Shown piece after piece: positions 147-42,185 of a stretch of 46,850 bases of DNA. The stretch's first letter is position 1. Each line of letters starts with the position of its first letter. Origin of the DNA: an uncultured bacterium (GTDB lineage Bacteria > Patescibacteriota > Minisyncoccia > Moranbacterales > UBA2206). The stretch is taken from the NCBI GenBank assembly GCA_903937035.1, contig CAIZXS010000026.1, positions 1 to 46,850 on the forward strand. The letters are read 5' to 3'. The translations under genes were made by a program, and so were the position numbers. The notes beneath the pieces are model-generated. The model saw nothing but the letters and a program-made list of their open reading frames with translations. It was not told where the DNA came from and made no database searches.

Positions 147-1265
147 ATGAAAATAGTATCGTCGAAAAAAACAACCGAAAAGGTTTTCCTTGTTTTTTTC
201 TTTGGAGCATTTATGGCTCTTCTTTTTTTATTCCAAAGTCAAAAAGTCGAGGCTGCCTGCAACTATCCTGCGCAAGTCTTGGACATTTCAAACTGCAAAC
301 AAACTTTGCCAATTGGAAAGTCTGGTAGTCCAAAAGAAATCACTCAACCGGCACTGGCAACATACACGTCAGATCCCTTTTTTAAGGCCAATGCGACATG
401 TGATGGTGTGATATTTCGAGCACCGGTCAATGGTGTGACAACCAGTAATTCAGGTTATCCACGTTCTGAGCTTCGTGAAATGACGAACGGTGGGAAAGAT
501 AATGCTAAGTGGTCAACTAAATCAGGAACGCACACCATGTTTATCGACCAAGCGATTACTGCTGTTCCCAAAAAGAAAAAACATGTTGTGGCAGGGCAGA
601 TTCACGGTGCCGATGATGATTTGATTGTCATTCGTTTGGAATTTCCCAAACTCTTTATCGATATTAATGGCAAGACTGGTCCGACTCTGGACGCTAAGTA
701 TACTTTAGGAAAAAGATTCACTGTTAAATTCGTTGCTGAGGGCGGAAAGGTTAAAATTTACTATAACGGCAGTCAAAATCCAATCTATACGTTGAGTAAA
801 TCAACTTCTGGCTGTTACTTTAAAGCTGGAGCCTATACTCAATCGAATTGCTCCAAGGAATCAGATTGCTCAAGTAACAATTTTGGTGAGGTGGTCATAT
901 ATGATCTATCTTTGAATGGGCAGGTTATTATCCCAAAAACTGGCACAACACCTCCACCAGCGTCTTTGACCATGAATGAGGCCTCGGTCGATTCAGCGCC
1001 CGTGGTAGTCGCCCTAGCGTCTGAGGCTGCGTCTGAGCCTGTAGTGCAAGTCGCGGAAGTTAAGGGAGCTTCAAATGATAATATTCCAGAAACTACTCAA
1101 TCTGACTTGGAAAGGGTCGTTCCGGTTATCGTAGTAAGCCGCTCAAGTGGCTGGTTTGAGGGAATTAAATCCTTTTCAATAGTTCAAAGTGGAAAAATCG
1201 CAATCAATTGGACTTCCAATTCGATTATAAATGTGATTTCAATGCTAGCAACGCGCTTGTCTTAA
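147..1265 (+). CDS. Secreted PL7-family alginate lyase
   Basis: Predicted endolytic polysaccharide lyase that cleaves alginate by beta-elimination outside the membrane. Residues 1-36 form a signal peptide (KK-rich start, hydrophobic stretch at about 13-30, VEA cleavage site). The catalytic jelly-roll at about 38-262 carries the three PL7 signatures: RSELREM (106-112), QIH (151-153) and YFKAGAYTQ (224-232). These supply the active-site Arg, Gln, His and Tyr. In PL7 enzymes QIH usually goes with activity on guluronate-containing blocks, QVH with poly-mannuronate. A Pro/Ala/Val/Glu-rich linker and a tail of about 100 residues with a weakly hydrophobic end follow; the tail is not a domain I recognise. 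No Shine-Dalgarno is visible. The gene sits 2.5 kb from an alginate-type synthase/epimerase operon on the other strand, which supports a role in trimming or releasing that polymer. A role in feeding on alginate made by other organisms is the alternative. Confidence 0.88.
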   Translation: MKIVSSKKTTEKVFLVFFFGAFMALLFLFQSQKVEAACNYPAQVLDISNCKQTLPIGKSGSPKEITQPALATYTSDPFFKANATCDGVIFRAPVNGVTTSNSGYPRSELREMTNGGKDNAKWSTKSGTHTMFIDQAITAVPKKKKHVVAGQIHGADDDLIVIRLEFPKLFIDINGKTGPTLDAKYTLGKRFTVKFVAEGGKVKIYYNGSQNPIYTLSKSTSGCYFKAGAYTQSNCSKESDCSSNNFGEVVIYDLSLNGQVIIPKTGTTPPPASLTMNEASVDSAPVVVALASEAASEPVVQVAEVKGASNDNIPETTQSDLERVVPVIVVSRSSGWFEGIKSFSIVQSGKIAINWTSNSIINVISMLATRLS

Positions 1266-3798: not shown

Positions 3799-5169
3799 TT
3801 ATTTAGGAATATCTAAGAATTTTAGTTTGAGGACATAGCTGAGTCCGGATTGCTCAAGATAGGCGACAGGCACTAGATTTGTGTCGTCGAATTTTTCTGG
3901 CACGTTTGGATATAGCTTGCCTTGATTTTCGAGGCGTATTGGATCTTGGAATATGCCAGCTTGCATGAAAGAAATCAGACTGGAACCGGAACTGGGATCT
4001 TCTCGGGGAAAATCAGAGGGGAGTGAGTTTTCCATCCAAGTGATATAGACCTGGTCGTTCTTGGTAATTCCAATATTGGGGAAAAATTGATATTGAGTTG
4101 ATGTTGGCAAGGGCAGAATATTGCCCCATTCTCCGTTTGCCAGTGCGCTATAAAATATCTGTGATGGTTGAGTTGTTGATGCTCCGGCGCGCCAGGCGAC
4201 GTGAATCACGTCATGGGAATCAATCGCGATACTTGCGTGTCTTGAGTCAAAGAGTGGATCGGAGATTGCTTGCCAGGCTGACCAAGAATCACCTCGATCA
4301 AGCGATGTTGCATATTCGATTTGCTGAATGTCGCCCATAGGGTTGCCCTGCGAAGAATACATAAAAAGATGCAGGTTGCCTTTTTGATCAATTACGAGAC
4401 TTGGGCGTGACTGGGTATTTTTTGAGATAGCGATATTTTTCCACGGTGACCAATTTTCTCCACCATCCTCAGATTTACTGAATTTTATTTGTTGGTTTTT
4501 GTTTGACGTGTCTTTTCCTTCCCATACGACATATAGAGTGTCATCTGGTCCGACAAGGAGTGTAGGATGTTCTTGCCAATAAAGTTCTCTTGTTGTATAG
4601 CCAGCAACGGGGGCGATATTTTTCCATTTAGACCAAGTTTGTCCAGTGTCGCTGGAAGCAGCATATTTGATTTGCCGATTATTTTCTTGCCAATTATCTG
4701 AGCCATACCAGACGGTATGTATGATTCCTTTGGAGTCAACTGCAATAGCGGGAACTCGTTGGCTTGCGGCGTTGATAGTGGCAATTGGATTTTTTGTTCC
4801 AGAAATCTCTGGCTTATCATCTCCCGTTACGCGCGCCACAAAAATCTCATATAAACCCAGATATTTTTTTCTATAGGCGATGTAGGTATTGCCTTTTTTG
4901 TCATAAGCAATTTTTCTTTGTCCGCTATATCCAAGACCTTTAGCGTCTTCCGTGCTATCAATCGTCAATTCGAGATTTGAGAAATTTTTACTACGTGTTT
5001 TGCCTTCTGTCGCTAATTCTATTGTGGCGGGGGTCTCGCTTGGAGGGGGAATTGTATTTTTGCTGGGTTTCATTTTCAAGATGGAAAAAATTGCTAGTAG
5101 TGCAATGGTAAATAGTATGAATGGCAGTTGCTTGGTTATTTTGTTATTGGATATTGTTGTCATAAGCAT
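3799..5169 (-). CDS. Membrane-anchored Asp-box (BNR) beta-propeller protein
   Basis: 456 residues with a single N-terminal transmembrane anchor (about 15-32) and an extracytoplasmic propeller. Three Asp-box repeats of the S-x-D-x-G-x-x-W type are visible: SSDTGQTWS, SEDGGENWS and SLDRGDSWS, with further degenerate blades. The fold is that of sialidases and several polysaccharide-binding or lyase propellers. I see no clear sialidase Arg triad, so sialidase activity should not be assumed. Its start overlaps the end of the synthase-epimerase gene by 26 bases, which argues for translational coupling and a shared task such as binding, guiding or modifying the polymer outside the cell. It is the last gene of the operon, followed by a strong terminator. 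Confidence 0.78.
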   Translation of the reverse strand: MLMTTISNNKITKQLPFILFTIALLAIFSILKMKPSKNTIPPPSETPATIELATEGKTRSKNFSNLELTIDSTEDAKGLGYSGQRKIAYDKKGNTYIAYRKKYLGLYEIFVARVTGDDKPEISGTKNPIATINAASQRVPAIAVDSKGIIHTVWYGSDNWQENNRQIKYAASSDTGQTWSKWKNIAPVAGYTTRELYWQEHPTLLVGPDDTLYVVWEGKDTSNKNQQIKFSKSEDGGENWSPWKNIAISKNTQSRPSLVIDQKGNLHLFMYSSQGNPMGDIQQIEYATSLDRGDSWSAWQAISDPLFDSRHASIAIDSHDVIHVAWRAGASTTQPSQIFYSALANGEWGNILPLPTSTQYQFFPNIGITKNDQVYITWMENSLPSDFPREDPSSGSSLISFMQAGIFQDPIRLENQGKLYPNVPEKFDDTNLVPVAYLEQSGLSYVLKLKFLDIPK

Positions 5170-7954
5170 CTGATGTTACATTTCCATCCTTTTTATTGTC
5201 TGTTGAATGAAAATTATTAAGAAAGGTGTTTTGACTTGCGTTTTTCAGCGTGATGCCAATCTCACTGCCACGCATAGTGTTGTTTACAAAGATATTATTC
5301 CTGGAGTTTCCATAGACATACATGCCGTAGGCGTTTTCAGCAATGGTGTTATTTTCGAAGAAATTTCCCACAGAGTCAACATTAAGTCGGATGCCTTTTT
5401 TATTGTTGTGGATATTGTTGTCTAAAACAATATTTTTGCTGGATTGATAGATAGTAATACCATCAACATTTTCGTATACAGTGTTTCCTTGAATGAGATT
5501 ATTATTCGATTCGCGATCGATCATGATGCCATGTAAGCGATTGTCAAAAGAAGTGTTATTGATAATTTTATTATCAAAACAGCGTTTTGAAATGATGATC
5601 CCATGATTACCATTATTATGCGATAGATTGTTTTCAATCAGCATATTATTAGAGTCATCATGCGGGTCAAGCCCATATTGAATATTATCATAAAATTCAT
5701 TTTCTTGAAAAATCATGCCCGTTATTCCGTAGGTATAGGCCCCAAAATAATTGTCGTGAAATTTATTACCGCGTACAATTCCAGTGAGCAATCGATCATG
5801 TAAGCTTTTGCCCTTGAGTTTCCAGGAGACTCCATAGGAACCTCCAAATTGCCCTCCTCGTCTCGGCGCGCCGACATAGCCGAGGTAGCCTAGTTCTGAA
5901 TCGATGATGTCCATTCGGCCATCATTTTTGGCAGTAATATAGCTTCTTCCATCTGCATAGTTAGAGTCAGGAGCGTTATTCTTTTCGTCCCAGGAGGTAA
6001 TTTTTGTCTTTGAGATGAGGATGCTTCCAGATTCAGAACGTAACCAAATAAAGCCATTTTCATCACTTTTAATTTTCAGATACGTCACGTCTTTTTCATC
6101 CAGCACTAGCGTTACATCTTTTCCGATATAGAGGTTGGCGCGGAGTATCCATTCGCCCGGAGCGGTCTGCTCAAGAAGTCTTCGATTTATGAAACTGAGC
6201 GAGCGGCTAATTTTTGTGAGCGTGGCAATACTGCCAGCTTGTTTGACAAAAATGGTATTGCTCGCAGCATCAAAAGTAACTCTTGGTGGTTTGGCAAAAG
6301 TATTGGGAATAATAGTGCTACTAAGGGGATTCCTAAGATCTTCAACGGGAATTGCTATTTGTTGGCCAACTGTCAAAAGTGTTAGCCTGCCGAGTGGTAC
6401 TTTCGTTTCTGCGTTTACGATACTTCCAGTTGGTGCTAAATTAAATCTTCTCCGGATAAGCGGTAATGTGTCGCCATTTTTTACAATATAATAACCGTAA
6501 GGATCATTCTGATTTTCACCAAGAAGGGTGGTTTTAATATTTTCTGTCTCGTCACTGCTAAGTCGTGGTTTATCTGGAGTTAAGTTGCTCAATTTTTGCG
6601 ATTGTACTTTTTTCTCAAAATTTGGTGTTTTCCAAATTCCTGTTTGCGCTAATTTTATAGCGCTACTCTTGAAGTAGAAAACGATAAAAAATAGTGCAAA
6701 AATTATTGATAAAGTTGCAATAAAAGAAAGGCCTCGCTCTAGAAAGCCCAAGCCTTTTAATCGACTTTTATCCCAGCGTGTGATCCAGCCTTGCTTGTCG
6801 ATGGTTATGAGAGCATAAATTTTAATCGCTGCGACAACGAAAGTCATTGCGACATAGATGGGCAAGATAAGAATATCTCTAGGCTTTTCTTTGAGATGGG
6901 GGTATATTTTTATAATGCGACTAACTAGCCACCAACATGCGATAATTAGGGCGACTTGCCAGTGTCTAAGATACAGGGAAATTATGAAATAGGAAAAACC
7001 GAGAAGAAGAGTTACTGGCGAAACTAGTTTGTCCAGCATGTGAAGCGCTAGCATTTTATGGTTTTTCCAAACCCAGCCACTGAGGAGAACTCGAGAATCA
7101 GAGCGCAAGCCATTGCGAGCCCAACGTAATTTTTGCTTAAGAAAGCTGGTTACATCCGTTGTTCCATTCGTATAAACTTTCACATCTCGAAGATAGCGGG
7201 TTTTCCAACCTTTTGCGTGGACCAAATTAGTAAGTGTCTTGTCATCGCCACTTATCATTTTTTTACCCCAAAAAGTTTCATTCTCAAGTTTGTCTAGCTC
7301 ATCAATGATGGCAATTTTGCGATAGACCGCGGTTCGGCCAGAAAGACAGAGTATTGCATCGCTAACAGTTGCTAGAAATGGATATTCAAGTAGATATCTG
7401 TCATCAAGCAAAAATTTGAATAATTTTCGTGAGAGTGTATCAGTTTTCAAGATATCTTGTCTTGTGACAAGTCCGCCAACTTCCGGATCGGCGAATGTTC
7501 CCAAGAGTGTGTCTTTTATATCCGCGCTCCAGATAGTGTCACTATCAACAAAAGCGATGATTTCACTGCTTGATGCTCTTGCGCCATCAACAAGCGCTGG
7601 GCGTTTTCCTGGTTTTTCGGTGACAATCATTTTGGCACCAGAAAAAATTTTTGAAAATTTTTCAAAAATCTCAATTGAGCTCTTGTCAGTGTGATCAATT
7701 ACGGCAATAATCTCGTCTGGCTTATTAGCTTCCCAGGAATAGAGTGCTAGTTGAAACATTTCCGGGTCTTCATTATACACCGGAGTTACAATGGAAAGAT
7801 TTGCTTTGTAAGTGCCTTCGGGTGATTTGTAGAAAAGAGAGATAATTTTTCGAATAATCCAAACACTCCAGCGCCAGATGCCGATAATGCCAAGGGGGAT
7901 GTAGAAAAGAATGAACTGGCTGTATTGATAAAGTGAATTCAAAAAAGTCTCCAT
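5144..7954 (-). CDS. Fusion of a GT2 polysaccharide synthase, a LysM-like segment and an AlgG-like mannuronan C5-epimerase
   Basis: 936 residues. Residues 1-430: one or two N-terminal membrane helices (about 13-41), a processive GT2 domain with DSD (137-139), SGDD (235-238) and QKLRW (274-278), then membrane helices near 308-352, 361-383 and 409-428. Residues 488-536 resemble LysM (YIVKNGDT at the start, VGQQIAIP at the end). Residues about 555-915 are a right-handed beta-helix of N-rich rungs. It holds QYGLDPHD (759-766) followed by NHGIIIS (783-789), the motif pair of AlgG/AlgE mannuronan C5-epimerases. In Pseudomonas AlgG a His five residues before the motif Asp is considered the catalytic base; here that position is Ile758. 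The layout suggests the polymer is made, exported and epimerised by one chain, whereas Alg8 and AlgG are separate proteins in pseudomonads. Mannuronan as substrate is inferred from the epimerase motif and the AlgD-type neighbour; the synthase motifs alone also fit hyaluronan-like synthases. Confidence 0.88.
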   Translation of the reverse strand: METFLNSLYQYSQFILFYIPLGIIGIWRWSVWIIRKIISLFYKSPEGTYKANLSIVTPVYNEDPEMFQLALYSWEANKPDEIIAVIDHTDKSSIEIFEKFSKIFSGAKMIVTEKPGKRPALVDGARASSSEIIAFVDSDTIWSADIKDTLLGTFADPEVGGLVTRQDILKTDTLSRKLFKFLLDDRYLLEYPFLATVSDAILCLSGRTAVYRKIAIIDELDKLENETFWGKKMISGDDKTLTNLVHAKGWKTRYLRDVKVYTNGTTDVTSFLKQKLRWARNGLRSDSRVLLSGWVWKNHKMLALHMLDKLVSPVTLLLGFSYFIISLYLRHWQVALIIACWWLVSRIIKIYPHLKEKPRDILILPIYVAMTFVVAAIKIYALITIDKQGWITRWDKSRLKGLGFLERGLSFIATLSIIFALFFIVFYFKSSAIKLAQTGIWKTPNFEKKVQSQKLSNLTPDKPRLSSDETENIKTTLLGENQNDPYGYYIVKNGDTLPLIRRRFNLAPTGSIVNAETKVPLGRLTLLTVGQQIAIPVEDLRNPLSSTIIPNTFAKPPRVTFDAASNTIFVKQAGSIATLTKISRSLSFINRRLLEQTAPGEWILRANLYIGKDVTLVLDEKDVTYLKIKSDENGFIWLRSESGSILISKTKITSWDEKNNAPDSNYADGRSYITAKNDGRMDIIDSELGYLGYVGAPRRGGQFGGSYGVSWKLKGKSLHDRLLTGIVRGNKFHDNYFGAYTYGITGMIFQENEFYDNIQYGLDPHDDSNNMLIENNLSHNNGNHGIIISKRCFDNKIINNTSFDNRLHGIMIDRESNNNLIQGNTVYENVDGITIYQSSKNIVLDNNIHNNKKGIRLNVDSVGNFFENNTIAENAYGMYVYGNSRNNIFVNNTMRGSEIGITLKNASQNTFLNNFHSTDNKKDGNVTSDAYDNNIQ

Positions 7955-32283: not shown

Positions 32284-33699
32284 ATGAAAAAATCCGAATT
32301 ATTTTTTAGTGCCATTCAAGTTCCGGTTGATTTTGCCATGATCGTTCTGGCAGCTCTGACTGCTTTTTCTGTCCGCAATGTTCCCAGTATTATTCAACTA
32401 AAACCACTACTTTATTCTTTCCCGTTTGATATTTATTTACGGATAGTCCTTATGACTGCGCCGCTTTTTCTTTTAATCTATGCTTTTGAGGGACTTTACG
32501 ATATTCGTTCAACAAGAAAGTTTTGGAAGGAAGCTTTGAAAATTTTTGCAGCAACTTCCATTGGTCTCGTGATTATCATCGTGGCAATATTTTTAAAACG
32601 AGAATGGTTTTCTTCTCGTTTTATTATTTTGGCTGCTTGGCTTCTCGCGACGATGTATGTGGTTATTGCCAGGTATCTGCTGCAACTAGTGCAAAAATGG
32701 CTTTTGCGAAATCGAGAAATCGGAGTGCATCGCGTTTTGCTTATTGGAAAAAATTCCAAGATGAACATTATTTCGCGAACTATCAAAAATAATAAAAATC
32801 TTGGTTACAAAGTAATTGATCAAATTGACACTGCTCATCTCAAGGTAATCAAAATAATTAAGGATGAGCGAGGCATTGATGAAATTATTCTTTGTGAATC
32901 CTCAATTACTGATGATGAGCAGGAAAAGCTGGTCGACTACTGCACCATTCATAATGTTGTCTACAAATACATTCCCACTGGGTTGCAGACTTTTAAGTTT
33001 GAAATCGGAATGCTCAATGGTGAGCCATTGATTGAGGTTAAAAATACTCCACTGGATGGTTGGGGCAGGATTGCCAAGCGAACATTCGATATCTTTGCTT
33101 CACTTATTGGGGTTATCCTTACCTCTCCGATTATGATTATCACCGCTATTGCGATTAAATTTGATAGCAAGGGGCCGATAATCTATAAGAATGAACGCAT
33201 TGGCAGCGATGGGAAGAAGTTTTTTGTGTATAAATTTCGCTATTTCAAAAATGAATACTGTATTTCAAAAAATAATCCAAAATTGCAAGCAGCGCTTGAA
33301 TATGAAAAGGAATTGATAGAGAAACAGAGTGTTAGGCGCGGACCACTCTATAAAATCAAGGCTGACCCAAGAAAAACTCGCGTGGGAAATTTTATTGAAA
33401 GGTATTCCATCGATGAATTGCCGCAACTTTTTAATGTATTATTTGGCTCTATGAGTCTCGTTGGGCCTCGTCCACATCAAGAGCGTGAGATTGAAAAGTA
33501 TATGGAGTATCACCGTCGCCTACTTACGATCAAGCCGGGTGTCTCAGGAATGGCTCAGATATCAGGTCGTTCGGATTTGGATTTTGAGGATGAATACAAG
33601 CTGGATTTATATTATATTGAGAATTGGTCAATGTTACTCGACATAATAATTTGCCTCAAAACCATCGGGGTGCTATTTTCTAAGCGAAGAAATCTATAA
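32284..33699 (+). CDS. Polyprenyl-phosphate sugar-phosphate transferase (exopolysaccharide initiation)
   Basis: 471 residues, WbaP/WcaJ type. Four or five N-terminal membrane helices (about 12-140), a CoA-binding-like cytosolic domain (about 145-260) and a C-terminal catalytic domain opened by a re-entrant helix ([18 protein letters not shown]). The catalytic domain shows [28 protein letters not shown] and [18 protein letters not shown], the fingerprints of the family. It puts the first sugar-1-phosphate on undecaprenyl phosphate, starting the repeat unit the next glycosyltransferases extend. Confidence 0.93.
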
Positions 33700-33726
33700 A
33701 CGCGTAAGTCATAAAATAAATAAGAA

Positions 33727-34845
33727 ATGCGGATTGCTCTGGCTCATGATTATTTGGTTCAATGTGGAGGCGCGGAAAAGGTGCTCGAATGTTTTTGCGA
33801 GCTTTTTCCATATGCGCCGATATATACGATAGTCTATGATGAAAATCTGATGCATGGCATGTTTAAGGGTAAAAACATCAAAACTTCCTATTTGCAAAAA
33901 ATTCCATTTGCTCCGACAAGGCACCGGATATTTCCTCCCCTTATGCCTATGGCAATTGAGCAGTTTGATTTTTCTCAGTATGACATTGTGCTTTCTGATT
34001 CGTCCGCTTATGCTAAAGGAATAATCACGGGACCAGAAACATTACATATCTGCTACATGCACACACCAATGCGTTACGCCTGGGATGACTGTCACAAATA
34101 CACAACTGACTTCTATTTTCCAACCTTCATCAAAAAAATGGTTCCTTTTTTTATGAACTACATTCGCGTTTGGGATCGATTCAGTGCGGATCGTCCAAAT
34201 AAGATCATTGCCAATTCAAATTTTATCGCAAGACGAATTGTGAAATACTACAAGCGAGATTCTTTAGTTATTAATCCTCCAATAACCTTGAGCAATTTCT
34301 ATATTAGCGATAAAACCGAAGGCTATTTTTTAATGGTTGGACGTTTCATGGCCTATAAGCGTTTCGACATTGCAATTGAAGCTTTTAATAAATTGAAATT
34401 GCCTTTAAAGATATTGGGTCGAGGACCTGAATTGAAGCGGCTTAAAAAAATCGCCGGACCCAATATTGAATTTCTTGGTAGAGTTTCAGATGAAGAGTTA
34501 TTTAGCTGTTTTTCTCGCTGTCGAGCGTTTATCTTTCCACAGGAGGATGATTTTGGTATTGTTGCAATTGAAGCAATGGCATCGGGCCGACCACTTATCG
34601 CTTACCGAGGAGGGGATATCCCTGAGCACATAGAAGAGGGCAAGACTGGGATATTTTTTGAAAACCAAACACCCGAAGATATTATTGATGCAGTGGGAAG
34701 ATTTCGAGATAGCGATTATGATCCTAAATATATCAGAGAAAAGGTTTTGAAATTTGATAAGAAAATTTTTAAGGAAAAAATTAAAAAATATATTGATCAA
34801 GAGCTAGCAGTGCACTTGGCAAAGCGAGAAAGACTAGTTTCATAA
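33727..34845 (+). CDS. GT4 glycosyltransferase (mannosyltransferase-like)
   Basis: 372 residues, GT-B fold. N-terminal domain begins RIALAHDYLVQCGGAEKVLE, the acceptor-side GGxE motif; the C-terminal domain has MVGRFMAYKRFDIAIEAF and the donor-binding E-x7-E (QEDDFGIVAIEAMASGRP). Similar to WbaZ-type enzymes that add mannose to lipid-linked oligosaccharides. Cytosolic face of the membrane. Second gene of the operon, 27 bases after the initiating transferase. Confidence 0.88.
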   Translation: MRIALAHDYLVQCGGAEKVLECFCELFPYAPIYTIVYDENLMHGMFKGKNIKTSYLQKIPFAPTRHRIFPPLMPMAIEQFDFSQYDIVLSDSSAYAKGIITGPETLHICYMHTPMRYAWDDCHKYTTDFYFPTFIKKMVPFFMNYIRVWDRFSADRPNKIIANSNFIARRIVKYYKRDSLVINPPITLSNFYISDKTEGYFLMVGRFMAYKRFDIAIEAFNKLKLPLKILGRGPELKRLKKIAGPNIEFLGRVSDEELFSCFSRCRAFIFPQEDDFGIVAIEAMASGRPLIAYRGGDIPEHIEEGKTGIFFENQTPEDIIDAVGRFRDSDYDPKYIREKVLKFDKKIFKEKIKKYIDQELAVHLAKRERLVS

Positions 34846-34865
34846 TTTTTTAAAAAATATTTCAT

Positions 34866-35471
34866 ATGGAATTAAAAGAATATTTATTGATCATAAGAAA
34901 ACAGATGAAGCTTTACATGGGAGTGATTGTCTTGTTTGTTTTAGGCGTATTGGGGTATTTTATTTTTCGCCCAGTAACTTTTGATACATCTCTTTTTTTA
35001 AATATCACTCGGGTAGGTAATCAAGTTTCTGAAGGGTATAAGTATGATGATTTTTATCGTCTGCAAGCTGATGAAAAATTTACCGAGACAATCGTAGAAT
35101 GGCTCAAGAGTCCGCGTATCGCTATGGACATTAGCAGTGTGGCTGGAAGGAGTGTTGATGGGCTAAGCTTGAAGCAATTAACTAGGATTTTTCAAGCAGA
35201 AAAAATGTCTTCACAGATTGTTTCTGTGAAATTTTCTTCTGCCGACAAGAAAACGGCCGAAAAAATTGCACAGGCCATTTCTGATGTTTTAAGGAAAAAT
35301 ACTGAAAAGTTAAATGAGGATCAGCGGGAGGACACCTGGTTTGAGATTAAGGCTGACAATCCCGTGATCATTGAGAATAATCCAGATTTGCGGATTATAT
35401 TTCTAGCTGCATTGGCCATGGGGATATTTATGGGCTTTTGGATTGTTATGTTGAAACACTACTTGAAATAA
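34866..35471 (+). CDS. Wzz/YveK-like chain-length or assembly protein
   Basis: 201 residues with two membrane helices (about 16-36 and 178-196) bracketing an outer domain of about 140 residues, the polysaccharide co-polymerase layout. The N-terminus MELKEYLLIIRKQMKLY is typical of the Wzz domain. No fused tyrosine kinase is seen. The loop is shorter than in classical Wzz (about 240), as in Gram-positive YveK/CapA proteins. Predicted to set polymer length for the repeat unit made by the surrounding genes. Confidence 0.8.
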   Translation: MELKEYLLIIRKQMKLYMGVIVLFVLGVLGYFIFRPVTFDTSLFLNITRVGNQVSEGYKYDDFYRLQADEKFTETIVEWLKSPRIAMDISSVAGRSVDGLSLKQLTRIFQAEKMSSQIVSVKFSSADKKTAEKIAQAISDVLRKNTEKLNEDQREDTWFEIKADNPVIIENNPDLRIIFLAALAMGIFMGFWIVMLKHYLK

Positions 35472-35501
35472 AGACTTAAATCTTGATTTGGGAAAAATAC
35501 G

Positions 35502-36677
35502 ATGACTAGAATCTGTATAGATGTGCGATGTCTCTCTGAAGGAAGAAGGACCGGTGTGGAAGAATATGCCTTGGGACTCTTTTTGAACTTGTTTGAACTT
35601 GACAAGAAAAATGAATACGTATTATTTTTAAGTGCTTGGAAAAAGCTTGATTTTGATTTTTCGCTATTTTCTCAATACCCCAATGTTAAATTGAAAAAAA
35701 TTCGCATTCCCAATAAGCTCCTAAATTTTTCCTTTTGGTATTTTGGCTGGCCTAAAATTGATAAACTGGTTGGTGGAGCTGATATTGTTTTTTTTCCTAA
35801 TATTATTTTTGGCGCGGTCAGCGCGGAAGTCAAATCCATAACAACCATTCATGACCTATCCTTTGAGAGGTATCCACAATATTTTTCCTGGAAAAGGCGA
35901 CTTTGGCATGTTTTTGTTAATCCCAGGAAAATTTGCCAAACCGCAAATGAAATAATTACTGTTTCGCATTCTTCAGCAGCTGATATTTTAAGCATATATG
36001 GAATTGCAAAAGAAAAAATTTCAGTCATTTCGAGTGCAGTAGGGCGCAATTTTTGCGTGCTTAGTCGCAATGATAGAAAGCTAATTGAGGTAAAGGAGAG
36101 ATATAATCTACCATTCAAGTTCATTCTTTTTCTGGGGACAGTTGAGCCAAGAAAAAATATTCTCGGTGTAATCGAAGCCTATAATGCCTTGCAAGAAATT
36201 GCAATTAAGGAAGATGATGCGGAGCTGTCAAAATATAAGTTGGTAATTGCTGGTTCTTCTGGCTGGCTCAGCGCTGAATTATTTGACGAAATTGAAAAAT
36301 CAAACTTCAAAGACAGAATAATATTGCCTGGATTTATTGCAAGTGATGATATGGCTTATGTCTACAATCTGGCTTCGCTTTTTGTTTACCCATCTTTTTT
36401 TGAGGGTTTTGGTTTTCCACCACTCGAGGCGATGGGGTGTGGCGTGCCGGTAGTCACTTCCAATAACTCATCACTTTCTGAAATTTGCGCAAATTGCGCT
36501 ATTCTCATTGACCCCCATCAGCCAGGAGAAATTTGCGAGGCAATGCGGCAAGTTTTATCAAATAAGGTTTTGCGAGAAAAATTAATCCAGGACGGACTGG
36601 AAAGGGTGAAGGAATTTACTTGGGAAAAAACTGCCAATAACGTTTTGGAAGTATTAAATTTTGATATGCATAAGTAA
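35502..36677 (+). CDS. GT4 glycosyltransferase
   Basis: 391 residues, GT-B. N-terminal RICIDVRCLSEGRRTGVEEYAL; C-terminal donor domain with LFLGTVEPRKNILGVIEAY and E-x7-E in PSFFEGFGFPPLEAMGCGVPVV. This start-to-end pattern is common in mannosyl/rhamnosyl transferases of O-antigen clusters. Sugar specificity not readable. Its end overlaps the longest possible frame of the next gene, which more likely starts at 36736. Confidence 0.9.
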   Translation: MTRICIDVRCLSEGRRTGVEEYALGLFLNLFELDKKNEYVLFLSAWKKLDFDFSLFSQYPNVKLKKIRIPNKLLNFSFWYFGWPKIDKLVGGADIVFFPNIIFGAVSAEVKSITTIHDLSFERYPQYFSWKRRLWHVFVNPRKICQTANEIITVSHSSAADILSIYGIAKEKISVISSAVGRNFCVLSRNDRKLIEVKERYNLPFKFILFLGTVEPRKNILGVIEAYNALQEIAIKEDDAELSKYKLVIAGSSGWLSAELFDEIEKSNFKDRIILPGFIASDDMAYVYNLASLFVYPSFFEGFGFPPLEAMGCGVPVVTSNNSSLSEICANCAILIDPHQPGEICEAMRQVLSNKVLREKLIQDGLERVKEFTWEKTANNVLEVLNFDMHK

Positions 36678-36723
36678 GTCTGTAATATCGGAGGCAGGGC
36701 TGTCTTTGCGGGCAATTGTATGC

Positions 36724-36729
36724 TATAAT
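36724..36729 (+). promoter_or_regulatory. Extended -10 promoter, probably leaderless
   Basis: TGCTATAAT (36721-36729) has the TGn extension plus a perfect -10. It ends six bases before ATG 36736, the same distance as at 2232-2244. No good -35 is visible. Confidence 0.5.
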
Positions 36730-36735
36730 TGCATT

Positions 36736-37863
36736 ATGAGAATTGGTATAGATGCGCGCTTTTTCGGCCCGATAGGCAAGGGATTGGGGCGTTATACGCA
36801 AAAATTAGTTGAAAAATTAGAAAAACTTGATTTGGTCAATGAATATTTGGTTTTCCTTAAAAAGGAAAATTTTGACGAATATCAGCCTCAAAATCCAAAC
36901 TTCAAAAAAGTATTAGCTGACTATAAATGGTATTCTATCTCTGAGCAGCTATCCATGCCACGATTGCTTAGAAAATATAAGTTAGACTTGGTGCATTTCC
37001 CGCATTTCAATGTTCCTTTTTTGTATAAAGAAAAGTTTGTCGTTACCATTCATGATTTAATCTTAATTCATTTTCCGACAATCAAAAATACCACCCTAAA
37101 CCCGTTGTATTATTGGATTAAATTTATTGCGTATCGGTTGATAATAAATTTTGCCATTGGACGATCAGAGAAGATTATCGCAGTTTCAGAGTTTACCAAG
37201 AAGGATATTGTGGAAAATTATGAAAATATCCCTCTGGAAAAGATTATTGTTACTCATGAAGCTTGTGAAGACTTCTGTATGCTTAGCCCCAATAAGGATG
37301 TGGAAATTTTAAAGCGTTATGCTATAATAAAACCATACCTCATCTACGTAGGGAATGCTTACCCGCACAAGAATTTGGAAAAATTGGTTGGAGCATTTTC
37401 TTCGCTACATGAAAAACATCCAGATTTGAGCTTGGTGCTTGTTGGTAAAGAAGACTATTTCTATCGAAGACTTAAAGATGTGGTTGCGAAAAAGGGAATA
37501 GATATGGTTGTATTTGTCGGCTATGTTCCTGACTATGATCTAGATACATTATTTCATAATGCCAAGGCTTTCGTCTTTCCTTCTCTCTACGAAGGATTTG
37601 GCCTTCCACCCCTGGAAGCGATGGCGAAAGGATTACCAGTGATTTGTTCAGACCATCCTTGCATGCGAGAAATTCTGGGAGAAAGCGCATACTATTTTAA
37701 TGGAAAGATTGAGGCTGCAATAGCGAAAGCGATTGATTTGGTTTTGCTAAATAATGATTTGCAAAACAAAATAAGAGAAGCGGGTTATCGACAGATAAAA
37801 AAATATAGTTGGAAAAAAATGGCGGAAGAGACAATGGGGGTATATAAAAGCGTCAAATTATAG
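36736..37863 (+). CDS. GT4 glycosyltransferase
   Basis: 375 residues from ATG 36736, where the conserved MRIGIDARFFGPIGKGLGRY begins; an earlier in-frame ATG (36661) adds 25 non-conserved residues. Donor domain YVGNAYPHKNLEKLVGAF and E-x7-E in PSLYEGFGLPPLEAMAKGLPVI. It is a close structural relative of the enzyme encoded just upstream, likely from duplication, and would add a later sugar. The DUF4012 gene follows directly. Confidence 0.9.
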   Translation: MRIGIDARFFGPIGKGLGRYTQKLVEKLEKLDLVNEYLVFLKKENFDEYQPQNPNFKKVLADYKWYSISEQLSMPRLLRKYKLDLVHFPHFNVPFLYKEKFVVTIHDLILIHFPTIKNTTLNPLYYWIKFIAYRLIINFAIGRSEKIIAVSEFTKKDIVENYENIPLEKIIVTHEACEDFCMLSPNKDVEILKRYAIIKPYLIYVGNAYPHKNLEKLVGAFSSLHEKHPDLSLVLVGKEDYFYRRLKDVVAKKGIDMVVFVGYVPDYDLDTLFHNAKAFVFPSLYEGFGLPPLEAMAKGLPVICSDHPCMREILGESAYYFNGKIEAAIAKAIDLVLLNNDLQNKIREAGYRQIKKYSWKKMAEETMGVYKSVKL

Positions 37864-40524
37864 ATGATGCAACAAAACAAAAAACCTCAAAATAGAATTA
37901 TCCAGCAAATGTTCGATGTCCGGCCGGTCGATAGGGCGGGCAATTTGGATTTGGATAAGATTAATCAGATAGCGCGTGTTTCAAGGATTGGTTTTTCAGA
38001 GAGAATGAAGAGTACGGAGCAAAGAGTGGCACCTACTCCAGCCTTTCACGATATCTACGCCTCGACTCCGCAAGAAGATGAAATTCGAAGATTTCGAAAA
38101 TTTATCGAGGAGGAAAGAGATGATTACGCATTTTCAGAAGAGACTGTCACTGCGAGTGGTTTACGGAATATCCACATTACTCATGCAACCAAGGTTGAGC
38201 GCCTCATGCCTAACAGTTGGAAGGATCAGCCATCGCTTCTAAGATATTCTTCGATTGAAAAAGCGAATCAAGTTCGGCTAGCACCCGCTCGAAGCAAGGC
38301 TCGAAAGCCTTTGTTTATACGAAAGAAAGTTGCAAAAATATTTCACAAGGGAGTGCGGATGATTGCTGGTTTTATGGCAATTGCAATTACCATATTTCAT
38401 AATATTTTTGCTGGGGCAGAAATTCTAATTGCCACCAATACCAAATCATTTTTTACCTCTGTTCGGGACTTTTTCGAAATTTTGAACAACAGCAGAAGGA
38501 GATACTATGGCTACATCGATGAATCAATCAGGAAAAGAAACACATTTTCTTTTTTTGCAACCGCTACCTGTGTCTTTGTTTTGGTCTTTGGTGTAGGTTT
38601 TTTCTATCGCAGTCTAAAAATAAAAAGCTTGGCAGTTGAAAATGGAAAAATAGCTTATGCTAGTCTTAATGAAGCAAAAGAGGGAATTAAAAATCGTGAT
38701 TTTGATGATGCGACCTTTAAATTTAATGACGCTTATGAACGTTTTGATATGATTCAAAAAGACATTGATAGTTTGGGGAGTGTCATCGTTGAATCCTCAA
38801 GATTTGTTCCCTATCTATCGAAACTTTCTTCTGGTTCGAATCTGTCTGAAGCGGGAAAGAATATCTCGCGTATCGGAGTGCTAGCAACAGAAATTATGAA
38901 AAATTTAAATAATGTCAAAAATCCGCTTAATAGCGAGGATTCGATATCGTATTTAAAACTTTTTCAAGAATCGGATAAAAATTTGACTGAAATCGCCCTT
39001 CGTATCAATGATTTAGCGGGTAATCTGGACAAGATTAATATTGAAGATATCCCTGAAGCACAGCGAAGTCGTTTTGTGGATTTGAAGAAAAAAATGCCTG
39101 AAATCAATAAATTCGTAACAAGCTTTTCTGAGGAGGAAAAAATATTAGCTGACGTCTTGGGTGGTAATGGTCCTCGAAAATATCTTTTTCTGTTTCAAAA
39201 TAACCAAGAAATGCGAGCGACCGGTGGATTTATTGGAACATACGCGGTGCTAGATATCTTTGATGGAAATGTTAAGAGTTTTTTTGTTGATGGCATATTT
39301 AATCCCGATGGACAGTTGCGGGAAAAAGTGATTCCACCTGCGCCAATCCAAAAGATTAGTGCTGCTTGGAGCCTGCATGATAGCAATTGGTTTCCTGATT
39401 TTCCAATGTCTGCTGAAAAGGCCTCGTGGTTTTATGAGAAAACTGGCGGTCCAACTGTGGATGGGGTAATTACCATGACGCCAACGGTGATGCAAAAACT
39501 CTTGGAAATTACCGGACCAATCGAGATGTCTGATTATGGAGTCACTATCGACAAAGATAACTTTCTTGAAAGCATTCAATATGAAGTAGAGGTGGATTAT
39601 GATAAGGAATTAAATCAGCCTAAGAAGATCTTAGCTGATTTGGCTCCAAAGATATTGGATCGCATATTTAACGCGAAAAACTTCGCAGATATTACGAAAA
39701 CGATGGACGTTCTTCTTACTAGTCTCAATGAGAAGCATATCCTAATTTATTCCAAGAATTACGATGTTGAAAAAATGCTTTCAGCTAATGGTTGGTCCGG
39801 TGAGGTTTTGGACACGGATAAAGATTATTTATCTGTGATCAATACTAATATTAATGGGTATAAAACGGATGGAGTGATTGATGAAACCATTTCTCACAAA
39901 GCAGAGATTCAAAACGACGGCTCGATTATCGATACCGTAACAATAACTCGTGAGCATAAAGGTGGTGACACTCCTCATGACTGGTGGAATCGTGTAAATG
40001 CGGATTATATGCGAGTCTATGTCCCGAAGGGTTCTAAGTTCATCAGAGCATCCGGAGAGACAAATGAATTTAATTCTCCTCCGATTGATTACCGCGCATT
40101 AGGTTTCAAAAAAGACGCTCAGGTGGGAATGGAAGAAGATTCTATGATAATCGATGCTGCTAGTGGCACGAGGATATATGAAGATTCTGGCAAAACCGTT
40201 TTTGCGAACTGGGTCTATGTTAGTCCGCAAGAGTCCGTAACGATGAGCTATTCCTACTTGTTGCCATTTAAGCTGGACACCAATTTAACCGTGAATCCTG
40301 CTGATACTTATTCACTTCTAGCTCAGAAGCAATCAGGTAGTGTGGGCAGTAAGTTTTCAACGAAAATCACATTTCCTAATTTTTATAAGATGATTTGGAA
40401 ATATCCTAGCGAAGAAATCTCTAATTTTTCGACTGACAATGAAAAGATTAGTGGCATTGAGATGGAAAGTGATTTGAAGACAGATAAGTTTATTGGAGTG
40501 GCATTTGAAAAAAATAATCAGTAA
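37864..40524 (+). CDS. DUF4012 membrane protein
   Basis: 886 residues. Basic N-terminal cytosolic part (1-160), hydrophobic segments at about 167-190 and 224-246, then a large outer region with a helical part (250-430) and the DUF4012 domain, recognisable by FLFQNNQEMRATGGFIGTYA, FFVDGIFNPDGQL and WSLHDSNWFPDFPMSAEKA. The last 200 residues are beta-rich. DUF4012 proteins are frequent in Patescibacteria and Actinobacteria near surface-glycan genes; the motif resembles LytR/Cps-type ligase regions, so attachment of glycan to the envelope is a guess. Starts four bases after the stop of the GT4 gene's last codon region, so coupled translation is likely. Confidence 0.82.
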   Translation: MMQQNKKPQNRIIQQMFDVRPVDRAGNLDLDKINQIARVSRIGFSERMKSTEQRVAPTPAFHDIYASTPQEDEIRRFRKFIEEERDDYAFSEETVTASGLRNIHITHATKVERLMPNSWKDQPSLLRYSSIEKANQVRLAPARSKARKPLFIRKKVAKIFHKGVRMIAGFMAIAITIFHNIFAGAEILIATNTKSFFTSVRDFFEILNNSRRRYYGYIDESIRKRNTFSFFATATCVFVLVFGVGFFYRSLKIKSLAVENGKIAYASLNEAKEGIKNRDFDDATFKFNDAYERFDMIQKDIDSLGSVIVESSRFVPYLSKLSSGSNLSEAGKNISRIGVLATEIMKNLNNVKNPLNSEDSISYLKLFQESDKNLTEIALRINDLAGNLDKINIEDIPEAQRSRFVDLKKKMPEINKFVTSFSEEEKILADVLGGNGPRKYLFLFQNNQEMRATGGFIGTYAVLDIFDGNVKSFFVDGIFNPDGQLREKVIPPAPIQKISAAWSLHDSNWFPDFPMSAEKASWFYEKTGGPTVDGVITMTPTVMQKLLEITGPIEMSDYGVTIDKDNFLESIQYEVEVDYDKELNQPKKILADLAPKILDRIFNAKNFADITKTMDVLLTSLNEKHILIYSKNYDVEKMLSANGWSGEVLDTDKDYLSVINTNINGYKTDGVIDETISHKAEIQNDGSIIDTVTITREHKGGDTPHDWWNRVNADYMRVYVPKGSKFIRASGETNEFNSPPIDYRALGFKKDAQVGMEEDSMIIDAASGTRIYEDSGKTVFANWVYVSPQESVTMSYSYLLPFKLDTNLTVNPADTYSLLAQKQSGSVGSKFSTKITFPNFYKMIWKYPSEEISNFSTDNEKISGIEMESDLKTDKFIGVAFEKNNQ

Positions 40525-40538
40525 GTTTCCTTAATTTT

Positions 40539-42185
40539 GTGATAAAAAAAATTCTTCGTAGCAGATTGCTATTGAACTCTGAGCCGTCGCATTCGGTTAT
40601 TTCTGCCGCATTCATAATCACCATAGCAGGACTTGCTAGTCGGATTCTCGGTCTTGTTCGGGATCGTTTTTTAGCCTCAACCTTTGGAGCGGGGGACACA
40701 CTAGATATCTACTATGCAGCTTTTCGTATTCCCGATTTAATTTACAATTTTTTGATTCTTGGCGCACTAAGCGCAGCGTTCATTCCTGTCTTTACGGGGC
40801 TTATCAGTAAAAAAAAAGACAAAGAAGCCTGGGACGCGGCAAACGGAGTGATGAATTTGGCAATTGCTCTTGTGATTGCGTTGTCGCTCATATTTTGTCT
40901 TTTTGCTCCATATTTGATGAAAATAATTACCCCGGGTTTTCCAGTGGAGAAAATGGATCAAGTCGTTCTGTTTACCCGAATAATGTTTCTTAGTCCTGTT
41001 TTTCTAGGCATTAGTGGGATTTTTGGAGGGGTACTCACTTCTTTTAAGCGATTTATGATTTATTCGCTCGCACCCGTTCTCTATAATCTAGGTATTATCT
41101 TTGGGGTTGTTTTTTTTGTCAAATTATGGGGACCAATCGGGTTGGCGTGGGGAGTTGTTTTGGGAGCGTTCTTGCATATGTTGATTCAATATCCTGCCGC
41201 CAGAAACTTGGGTTTTCGTCATAGATTTGCTTTTAGGGAATATTTTATCAACAAAGATATTCGCCATATCTTCAAACTCATGATTCCTCGAATGATGGGC
41301 ATTGCTGTTTCTCAGGCTAATTTATTTATAATCACAATTTTTGCTTCAACCCTTATCGCTGGCAGTTTATCAATTTTCAACTTTGCCCAAAATTTGCAAA
41401 GCGTGCCACTGGGAATTTTTGGCGTTTCATTTTCTATTGCCGCCTTTCCGACACTTTCCGCTCTCTGGGCTACAAATGATAAGAAGAAATTTGCCAAAAC
41501 GTTTGCGGAAACATTTTGCCAGATCATGTTTTTTGTCATCCCGCTCAGCATTTTTATATTACTCCTTCGTGCCCAGATTGTTCGCGTGACATTGGGCGCG
41601 GGAAAGTTTGATTGGGAAGACACAATTCTCACCTATGAATGTTTAAAATACTTCACCCTTAGTCTTTTTGCGCAAAGCGTTGTCCCGCTTCTCACTCGCT
41701 CATTCTATGCCATCCACAACACCCGAACGCCTTTCTATATCGCAATATTTAGCGAAATAATCAATATCATAGCAGTGCTACTTTTGATTGGTAAATATGA
41801 AATACAAGGCCTCGCGATGGCCTTTTCACTTACCAGTCTCATTCAGATGTTTTTGCTATTTATTGCTCTGCGTTCCAAATTCGATGATTTGGGGGATAAA
41901 AAAATCGTAAAATCAATCGGACAAATTGCGTTCTCTGCCATTTTTTCCGGTATTGGAGTGCAGATATCCAAATATATCGTAGCAAGCTTTGTTGACATGG
42001 ATACTTTCCTGGGCGTTTTCGCACAATTGGCAATTTCAGGAGCCATAGGTATATTCATCTTCCTCGCTCTTTGTCACTTTTTGCGCCTAGAAGAATACTT
42101 GGAATTTAAAAAATCCTTGACGAAGAAAATCTTCAAGGATAAAAAGGCTATTACTGAAAATACGGGAGAGGTGAGTGGGGTGTAG
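40539..42185 (+). CDS. murJ: Lipid II / polyprenyl-glycan flippase MurJ
   Basis: 548 residues, GTG start at 40539, about 14 membrane helices. N-terminal AAFIITIAGLASRILGLVRD, FGAGDTLDIYYAAFRIPD and ALSAAFIPVF are MurJ/MviN signatures; Arg residues lining the central cavity are kept. It moves lipid-linked wall precursors across the membrane. Being the last gene of an exopolysaccharide operon, it may flip the lipid-linked repeat unit instead of, or as well as, lipid II; no Wzx or Wzy is seen in the window. Confidence 0.93.
   Translation: MIKKILRSRLLLNSEPSHSVISAAFIITIAGLASRILGLVRDRFLASTFGAGDTLDIYYAAFRIPDLIYNFLILGALSAAFIPVFTGLISKKKDKEAWDAANGVMNLAIALVIALSLIFCLFAPYLMKIITPGFPVEKMDQVVLFTRIMFLSPVFLGISGIFGGVLTSFKRFMIYSLAPVLYNLGIIFGVVFFVKLWGPIGLAWGVVLGAFLHMLIQYPAARNLGFRHRFAFREYFINKDIRHIFKLMIPRMMGIAVSQANLFIITIFASTLIAGSLSIFNFAQNLQSVPLGIFGVSFSIAAFPTLSALWATNDKKKFAKTFAETFCQIMFFVIPLSIFILLLRAQIVRVTLGAGKFDWEDTILTYECLKYFTLSLFAQSVVPLLTRSFYAIHNTRTPFYIAIFSEIINIIAVLLLIGKYEIQGLAMAFSLTSLIQMFLLFIALRSKFDDLGDKKIVKSIGQIAFSAIFSGIGVQISKYIVASFVDMDTFLGVFAQLAISGAIGIFIFLALCHFLRLEEYLEFKKSLTKKIFKDKKAITENTGEVSGV

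Follow-up and report, generated by a model that had tools for sequence, protein, structure and literature searches.

In this work we have analysed a stretch of 46,850 nucleotides (contig CAIZXS010000026.1 of assembly GCA_903937035.1, from an uncultured Moranbacterales bacterium of the Patescibacteriota; hereafter the window) in which one gene joins a membrane polysaccharide synthase of glycosyltransferase (GT) family 2 to an AlgG-like epimerase. The gene is an uninterrupted frame of 936 codons starting from ATG, and its product presents, in this order, a GT2 synthase (residues 1-437), a LysM segment (~486-536) and an AlgG-family beta-helix (~575-936). The protein is probably a self-contained alginate synthase and C5-epimerase, in which polymerisation, export and epimerisation would take place in cis without a Pseudomonas-type exporter; the chemistry of the product and a single membrane are among the parts of this proposal that we infer. 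An initial annotation, made from the sequence alone, had already described a single polypeptide joining both activities through a LysM-like segment and had read it as an alginate-type system. The intact reading frame, the domain matches and the conservation of the fusion bear out the first claim, and an AlgD-like dehydrogenase, a PL7 lyase and GDP-mannose genes in the genomic context support the second. To our knowledge, the alginate producers known to date divide synthesis and epimerisation between different proteins, and we found no description of a synthase-epimerase fusion in the literature, of which our coverage was incomplete, many subscription papers lying outside it.

All of the motifs named in the initial annotation were located, DSD (137-139), SGDD (235-238) and QKLRW (274-278) in the synthase and YGLDPHD (760-766) and HGIIIS (784-789) in the beta-helix, together with an additional one, WITR (390-393), that forms part of a gating loop, W390-x-T-R393-W394. 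Conservation was assessed in an alignment of 34 complete fusion sequences, of which the WWE3 homologue L040 is not one, and D137, D139, SG[DE]D (235-238), QxxRW (274-278) and WxTRW (390-394) are invariant in all of them. The cytoplasmic GT domain (residues 50-290) holds DSD, SGDD and QKLRW, and is accompanied by transmembrane helices at 12-39, 300-328, 332-349 and 404-437 and by an interface helix at 358-383. In hyaluronan synthase (HAS) the gating loop connects interface helix 3 with transmembrane helix 5 above the catalytic pocket (PMC11750622), and helices 358-383 and 404-437 would be the equivalents of these two elements. This half matched PF13641 (6.3e-19), the NodC model (7.1e-30) and HAS structures (6e-15), and it presents the GT-A motifs, interface helices, gating loop and transmembrane channel of the processive membrane GT2 synthases of the HAS/NodC/BcsA/Alg8 type.

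An AlphaFold2 model of the whole chain, built on the 34-row alignment, reached a mean pLDDT of 88.6 with a pTM of 0.54, values which indicate reliable models of the individual domains but not of how these are placed relative to one another. When this model was compared with the PDB using Foldseek, AlgG was the top match (2.8e-18), followed by hyaluronan synthases (3.1e-16). The predicted topology would have the GT domain on the cytoplasmic side, and the LysM segment and the epimerase outside, because the homology to HAS (interface helix and transmembrane helix 5) and the positive-inside pattern agree; the mean number of lysines plus arginines per loop was 3.1 in 349-359, 4.2 in 383-405 and 0.3 in 326-332. 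The LysM-like stretch, first noticed at residues 488-536, has support at the level of the family: PF01476 was detected in 22 of the 34 full-length homologues, with 1.1e-11 at best and a score under the threshold in the window protein, the profile of the fusion family also matches LysM proteins with solved structures (Ecp6 and LytE), and the segment shows a strand-helix-strand pattern in the model. Searches of viral contigs gave no match to the fusion, and none was found in PHROGs, so there is no sign of a phage gene.

Regarding the beta-helix half, the AlgG model NF038177 matched residues 589-880 with 1.1e-43, ahead of PF13229 (4.3e-22) and NosD (1.2e-18), and matched all 34 fusion sequences. 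A generic NosD or pectate-lyase beta-helix, considered at the outset as the outcome that would speak against an epimerase, is ruled out since the AlgG model scores far better. The half also matched the structure of Pseudomonas syringae AlgG (4.6e-31), and its fold that of AlgG 4nk6 (2.8e-18 in Foldseek, TM-score 0.69 by target). In AlgG, the tyrosine, the histidine of DPHD and an arginine that neutralises the carboxylate have known roles (PMC4444821). Y760, D763, H765, D766 and H784 are invariant in the 34 sequences, and position 790, aligned with that arginine, is lysine in 30 of them and arginine in the remaining 4. From these residues, we infer that the beta-helix half would convert mannuronate to guluronate.

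Table 1. Coordinates in the window of the fusion gene, its parts and neighbouring genes.
Feature	Position	Strand	Remarks
Synthase-LysM-epimerase fusion gene	5144..7954	-	936 aa; stop included in coordinates
GT2 synthase part, residues 1-437	6644..7954	-	Motifs fully or almost fully conserved in 34 sequences
LysM segment, residues 486-536, predicted directly outside the membrane	6347..6499	-	Family profile and model
AlgG-like right-handed beta-helix, putative epimerase, residues 575-936	5147..6232	-	AlgG model, fold and active-site residues
Two-domain nucleotide-sugar 6-dehydrogenase, 306 aa	7995..8915	-	Closest solved structure GDP-mannose dehydrogenase AlgD
Secreted PL7 alginate lyase	147..1265	+	PF08787; closest solved structure polyguluronate lyase 1UAI
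Membrane-anchored BNR/beta-propeller protein	3799..5169	-	Overlaps 3' end of fusion gene

When 84,980 species genomes were scanned, 64 loci were recovered, including 42 fused open reading frames (ORFs) with the GT part, from Moranbacteria, Daviesbacteria, Amesbacteria, Curtissbacteria, WWE3, Woesebacteria, Levybacteria and Roizmanbacteria. Most of them are on contigs of candidate phyla, and one (L103) belongs to a short contig that carries the label Chloroflexi and may be misbinned. Full-length fusions are present across many genomes at 80 to ~40% identity, and two further homologues from another class are 44-45% identical along the whole length. Among the 131 genomes of the order, the fusion is found in 12 besides our own, one of which has it divided between two ORFs, and in a 14th a fragment is present where a contig ends; these are referred to below as the 14 fusion genomes. 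The same fusion was therefore recovered widely when sought in other Patescibacteria, as the initial annotation had proposed, and it is not unique to this genome. An artefact of sequencing, assembly or annotation merging two genes deserves next to no credence, even if in one relative (L086/L068) a stop or frameshift divides the gene into two ORFs, one for each half, and L107 and L105 are broken too: a joining by assembly or by chance is ruled out by the 34 complete fusions, which come from assemblies independent of one another, among them that of a curated, complete WWE3 genome (L085), and which agree in domain order and junction. In two loci (L084:1107-7923 and L096:4675-11572) a pair of fusion genes flanks one dehydrogenase gene, suggesting duplicated machines. 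A further genome of our phylum (L012:1390-3285) encodes a GT2 synthase that has no epimerase and is prolonged at its C-terminus by a long stretch resembling LysM by eye.

Unfused relatives were found in Chloroflexota and Saccharibacteria, in which homologues of the synthase and the dehydrogenase have a separate AlgG-like gene next to them, with the YGxD-[PA]-H core retained; in the Saccharibacteria locus L124 it is the separate epimerase that carries LysM, with a weak score (8.1e-4). In an unrooted tree of the GT part fused and separate forms are intermixed; the well-supported branches require 4 changes or more and the best fit has 7, some of which stem from broken or truncated ORFs (L086, L127). 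The fusion may thus have arisen once and been split later, or have arisen several times. In Nitrososphaerales (ammonia-oxidising archaea, L115-L122), a synthase homologue ~45% identical to the GT part lies beside a divergently transcribed dehydrogenase, and nearby beta-helix proteins match AlgG weakly and are devoid of the DPH motif; haloarchaea have the synthase and dehydrogenase only.

The genomic context of the fusion points to an alginate-type polymer. For 39 of the 42 fusions a dehydrogenase gene is found no more than 1.5 kb away, on the same strand in all of these and with a median gap of 19 bases; of the other three, L091 and L105 are near a contig end and in L093 the contig stops inside the fusion gene. 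The dehydrogenase contains the NAD-binding and central domains with the catalytic cysteine and a GSCLPKD motif, and among solved structures its family profile matched AlgD best (2.4e-70, against 2.3e-64 for the top UDP-glucose dehydrogenase). Its family without the C-terminal domain (alignment A3) ranges from candidate phyla to Chloroflexota and archaea. Elsewhere in the genome (contig C12, 5.8-11.6 kb) there are genes for a phosphomannomutase, a phosphoglucose/phosphomannose isomerase and a mannose-1-phosphate guanylyltransferase, which are compatible with a supply of GDP-mannose and are weak evidence for it because the guanylyltransferase is widespread, occurring in 115 of the 131 genomes of the order; its co-occurrence with the fusion is for that same reason uninformative as a test.

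The PL7 lyase of the window matched PF08787 with 3.8e-42 and polyguluronate lyase 1UAI, the nearest structure, with 2e-73, and its catalytic motifs RSELR, QIH and YFKAGAY (at 106, 151 and 224) are intact. If the epimerase does produce guluronate, a lyase specific to guluronate blocks is what one would expect beside it. Only 8 of the 131 genomes of the order contain PL7 and all 8 belong to the 14 fusion genomes, with a p-value (~2e-9) that is overstated, as it treats genomes as independent and is uncorrected for relatedness. These 8 genomes span four families and, in several of them, lyase and fusion are on different contigs. Furthermore, in a draw of 380 genomes of the phylum PL7 was above the cut-off solely in the window's own genome, and it was present in 8 of 17 further fusion-bearing genomes searched through their loci. 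Amesbacteria, Curtissbacteria, Woesebacteria, Levybacteria and Roizmanbacteria likewise have PL7 genes in the vicinity of fusions, and in Saccharibacteria PL7 adjoins the unfused cluster. Our genome encodes a second alginate lyase of PL7, at a site away from the fusion (contig C1:34312-34968, L152).

Several observations weigh against an alginate synthase-epimerase. The best scores of the synthase were to NodC and HAS models, in a comparison set with no Alg8 reference, and its matches include neither a model nor a structure of Alg8; the search of each half proposed in the initial annotation pointed to the AlgG family for the beta-helix and placed the synthase nearest NodC and HAS. The C-terminal UDPG_MGDP_dh_C domain of AlgD is absent from the dehydrogenase and from all 31 relatives examined, and hence we class it as AlgD-like and not as AlgD. 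No match to the guanylyltransferase was found in two fusion-bearing metagenome-assembled genomes, each ~90% complete (G496 and G422), and about half of the fusion genomes are without PL7. The beta-helix scored 149.7 against an equivalog cut-off of 700 for NF038177, which makes it a member of the AlgG family whose orthology to Pseudomonas AlgG is not established, and L040 has SVG in place of SKR, with valine at the arginine-aligned position.

Some of these observations would fit the same machine making another polymer, a beta-1,4 polyuronate such as glucuronan or a hyaluronan-like mix from UDP-sugars, with for instance glucuronate being converted to iduronate. The affinity of the synthase to NodC and HAS is in line with this, as are a dehydrogenase family that spans UDP-glucose and GDP-mannose enzymes with a modest margin for AlgD, the existence of a glucuronan lyase within PL7 (7nde, a weak match) and the resemblance of the beta-propeller neighbour to glucuronate-acting enzymes. 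We consider it unlikely, given that the epimerase half is specifically AlgG-like, that the lyase is by far nearest a polyguluronate lyase, that GDP-mannose genes are present and that there is no full-score GalU among the three sugar nucleotidyltransferases found. The low equivalog score could also mean that the beta-helix acts as a lyase, or only binds the chain without catalysis, and would then serve the synthase by trimming or guiding its product; beta-helix epimerases and lyases have chemistry in common, and AlgE7 has epimerase and lyase activity from one site (PMC8824271). Nevertheless, the tyrosine, DPHD and a basic residue are kept in 34 of 34 sequences, which would be needless for mere binding, and a dedicated PL7 lyase exists separately, so this explanation seems very improbable.

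For an alginate synthase-epimerase, we propose that the neighbouring short AlgD-like dehydrogenase would convert GDP-mannose to GDP-mannuronate, which the cytoplasmic GT2 domain, with its HAS/NodC-like fold and motifs, would polymerise and pass through its own channel. The chain would exit on the outer face beside the LysM segment, which probably tethers the machine to peptidoglycan, and the tethered beta-helix, with its AlgG-type active site, would invert C5 of some mannuronates to give guluronate during the passage. Finally, the secreted PL7 lyase, and possibly also the beta-propeller protein, could trim or release the product.

The beta-propeller protein has one N-terminal hydrophobic helix and a predicted propeller (pLDDT 82.9) resembling rhamnose-glucuronate lyase, the GH145-type BT3686, ulvan lyases and sialidases (with modest TM-scores, 0.35-0.67 by target), and its gene is near fusions in 9 loci; with low confidence, it could be a surface protein acting on or binding uronates. 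In a WWE3 locus (L039:6629-8393) a GDSL/SGNH hydrolase and then an acyltransferase-3, possibly O-acetylating the polymer, are one gene from the fusion, and in Microgenomates clusters (L083:12856-14446 and similar) a secreted fn3 protein and a sortase adjoin PL7. The window also contains a cytidylyltransferase-like gene of the HldE domain II type (2244-2738), with a homologue in Saccharibacteria (L124:13650-14126), and a separate surface-polysaccharide cluster (32284-42185), read from translations, with a sugar-phosphate transferase, several glycosyltransferases and chain-length-like and flippase-like proteins.

A broader reading, about as likely as not, is that there is a second alginate route independent of an outer membrane in candidate phyla and Chloroflexota, and perhaps archaea, that would combine a NodC/HAS-like synthase with a two-domain AlgD-like dehydrogenase without the export and c-di-GMP parts of Pseudomonas; in Patescibacteria, synthase and epimerase would be one cell-wall-tethered protein setting the guluronate content during extrusion. 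Candidate-phyla bacteria are regarded as host-dependent and as having few pathways, and our results suggest that they make an alginate-type surface polymer of their own, so that alginate may extend beyond Pseudomonas, Azotobacter and brown algae. Moreover, a natural fusion suggests that epimerisation is possible at the mouth of the channel, and provides a single protein for structure determination and for alginates of set composition.

Alginate production in Pseudomonas and Azotobacter depends on the Alg8-Alg44 synthase, the AlgG epimerase and export by AlgKXE (PMC9734138, PMC4444821). The AlgE porin (PF13372) and PilZ/Alg44 (PF07238) families are absent from our 98.7% complete genome, as expected if an outer membrane and c-di-GMP control are lacking, and the system therefore falls outside Gram-negative synthase-dependent secretion with its porin and PilZ co-polymerase. 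Both systems share a GT2 membrane synthase, an AlgG-family epimerase beyond the inner membrane (by prediction in our case), an AlgD-like dehydrogenase and a linked lyase; here, by contrast, a single polypeptide with LysM inserted comprises both synthase and epimerase, the epimerase is predicted to be tethered at the channel exit, the dehydrogenase has two domains and the lyase is PL7 instead of AlgL. In brown algae, alginate synthase and epimerases are separate proteins. Their alginate pathway includes AlgG-related C5-epimerases (PMC4444821). The Chloroflexota and Saccharibacteria loci (L113, L124, L126, L128 and L131) have in common with the fusion the synthase, the dehydrogenase and an AlgG-like epimerase (YGxD-P/A-H), and those of Saccharibacteria also PL7, but their epimerase is a neighbouring gene of its own. 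Finally, the processive GT2 fold, the self-contained membrane channel and the DxD, GDD, QxxRW and gating-loop W-x-T-R motifs are shared with NodC and with HAS from Chlorella virus and Xenopus (PMC11750622), from which the fusion differs in the presence of LysM and the epimerase, in its presumed substrate, GDP-mannuronate, and in having 1 N-terminal and 3 C-terminal transmembrane helices, against 2 and 4 in HAS, an arrangement that is thus predicted to leave its C-terminus outside.

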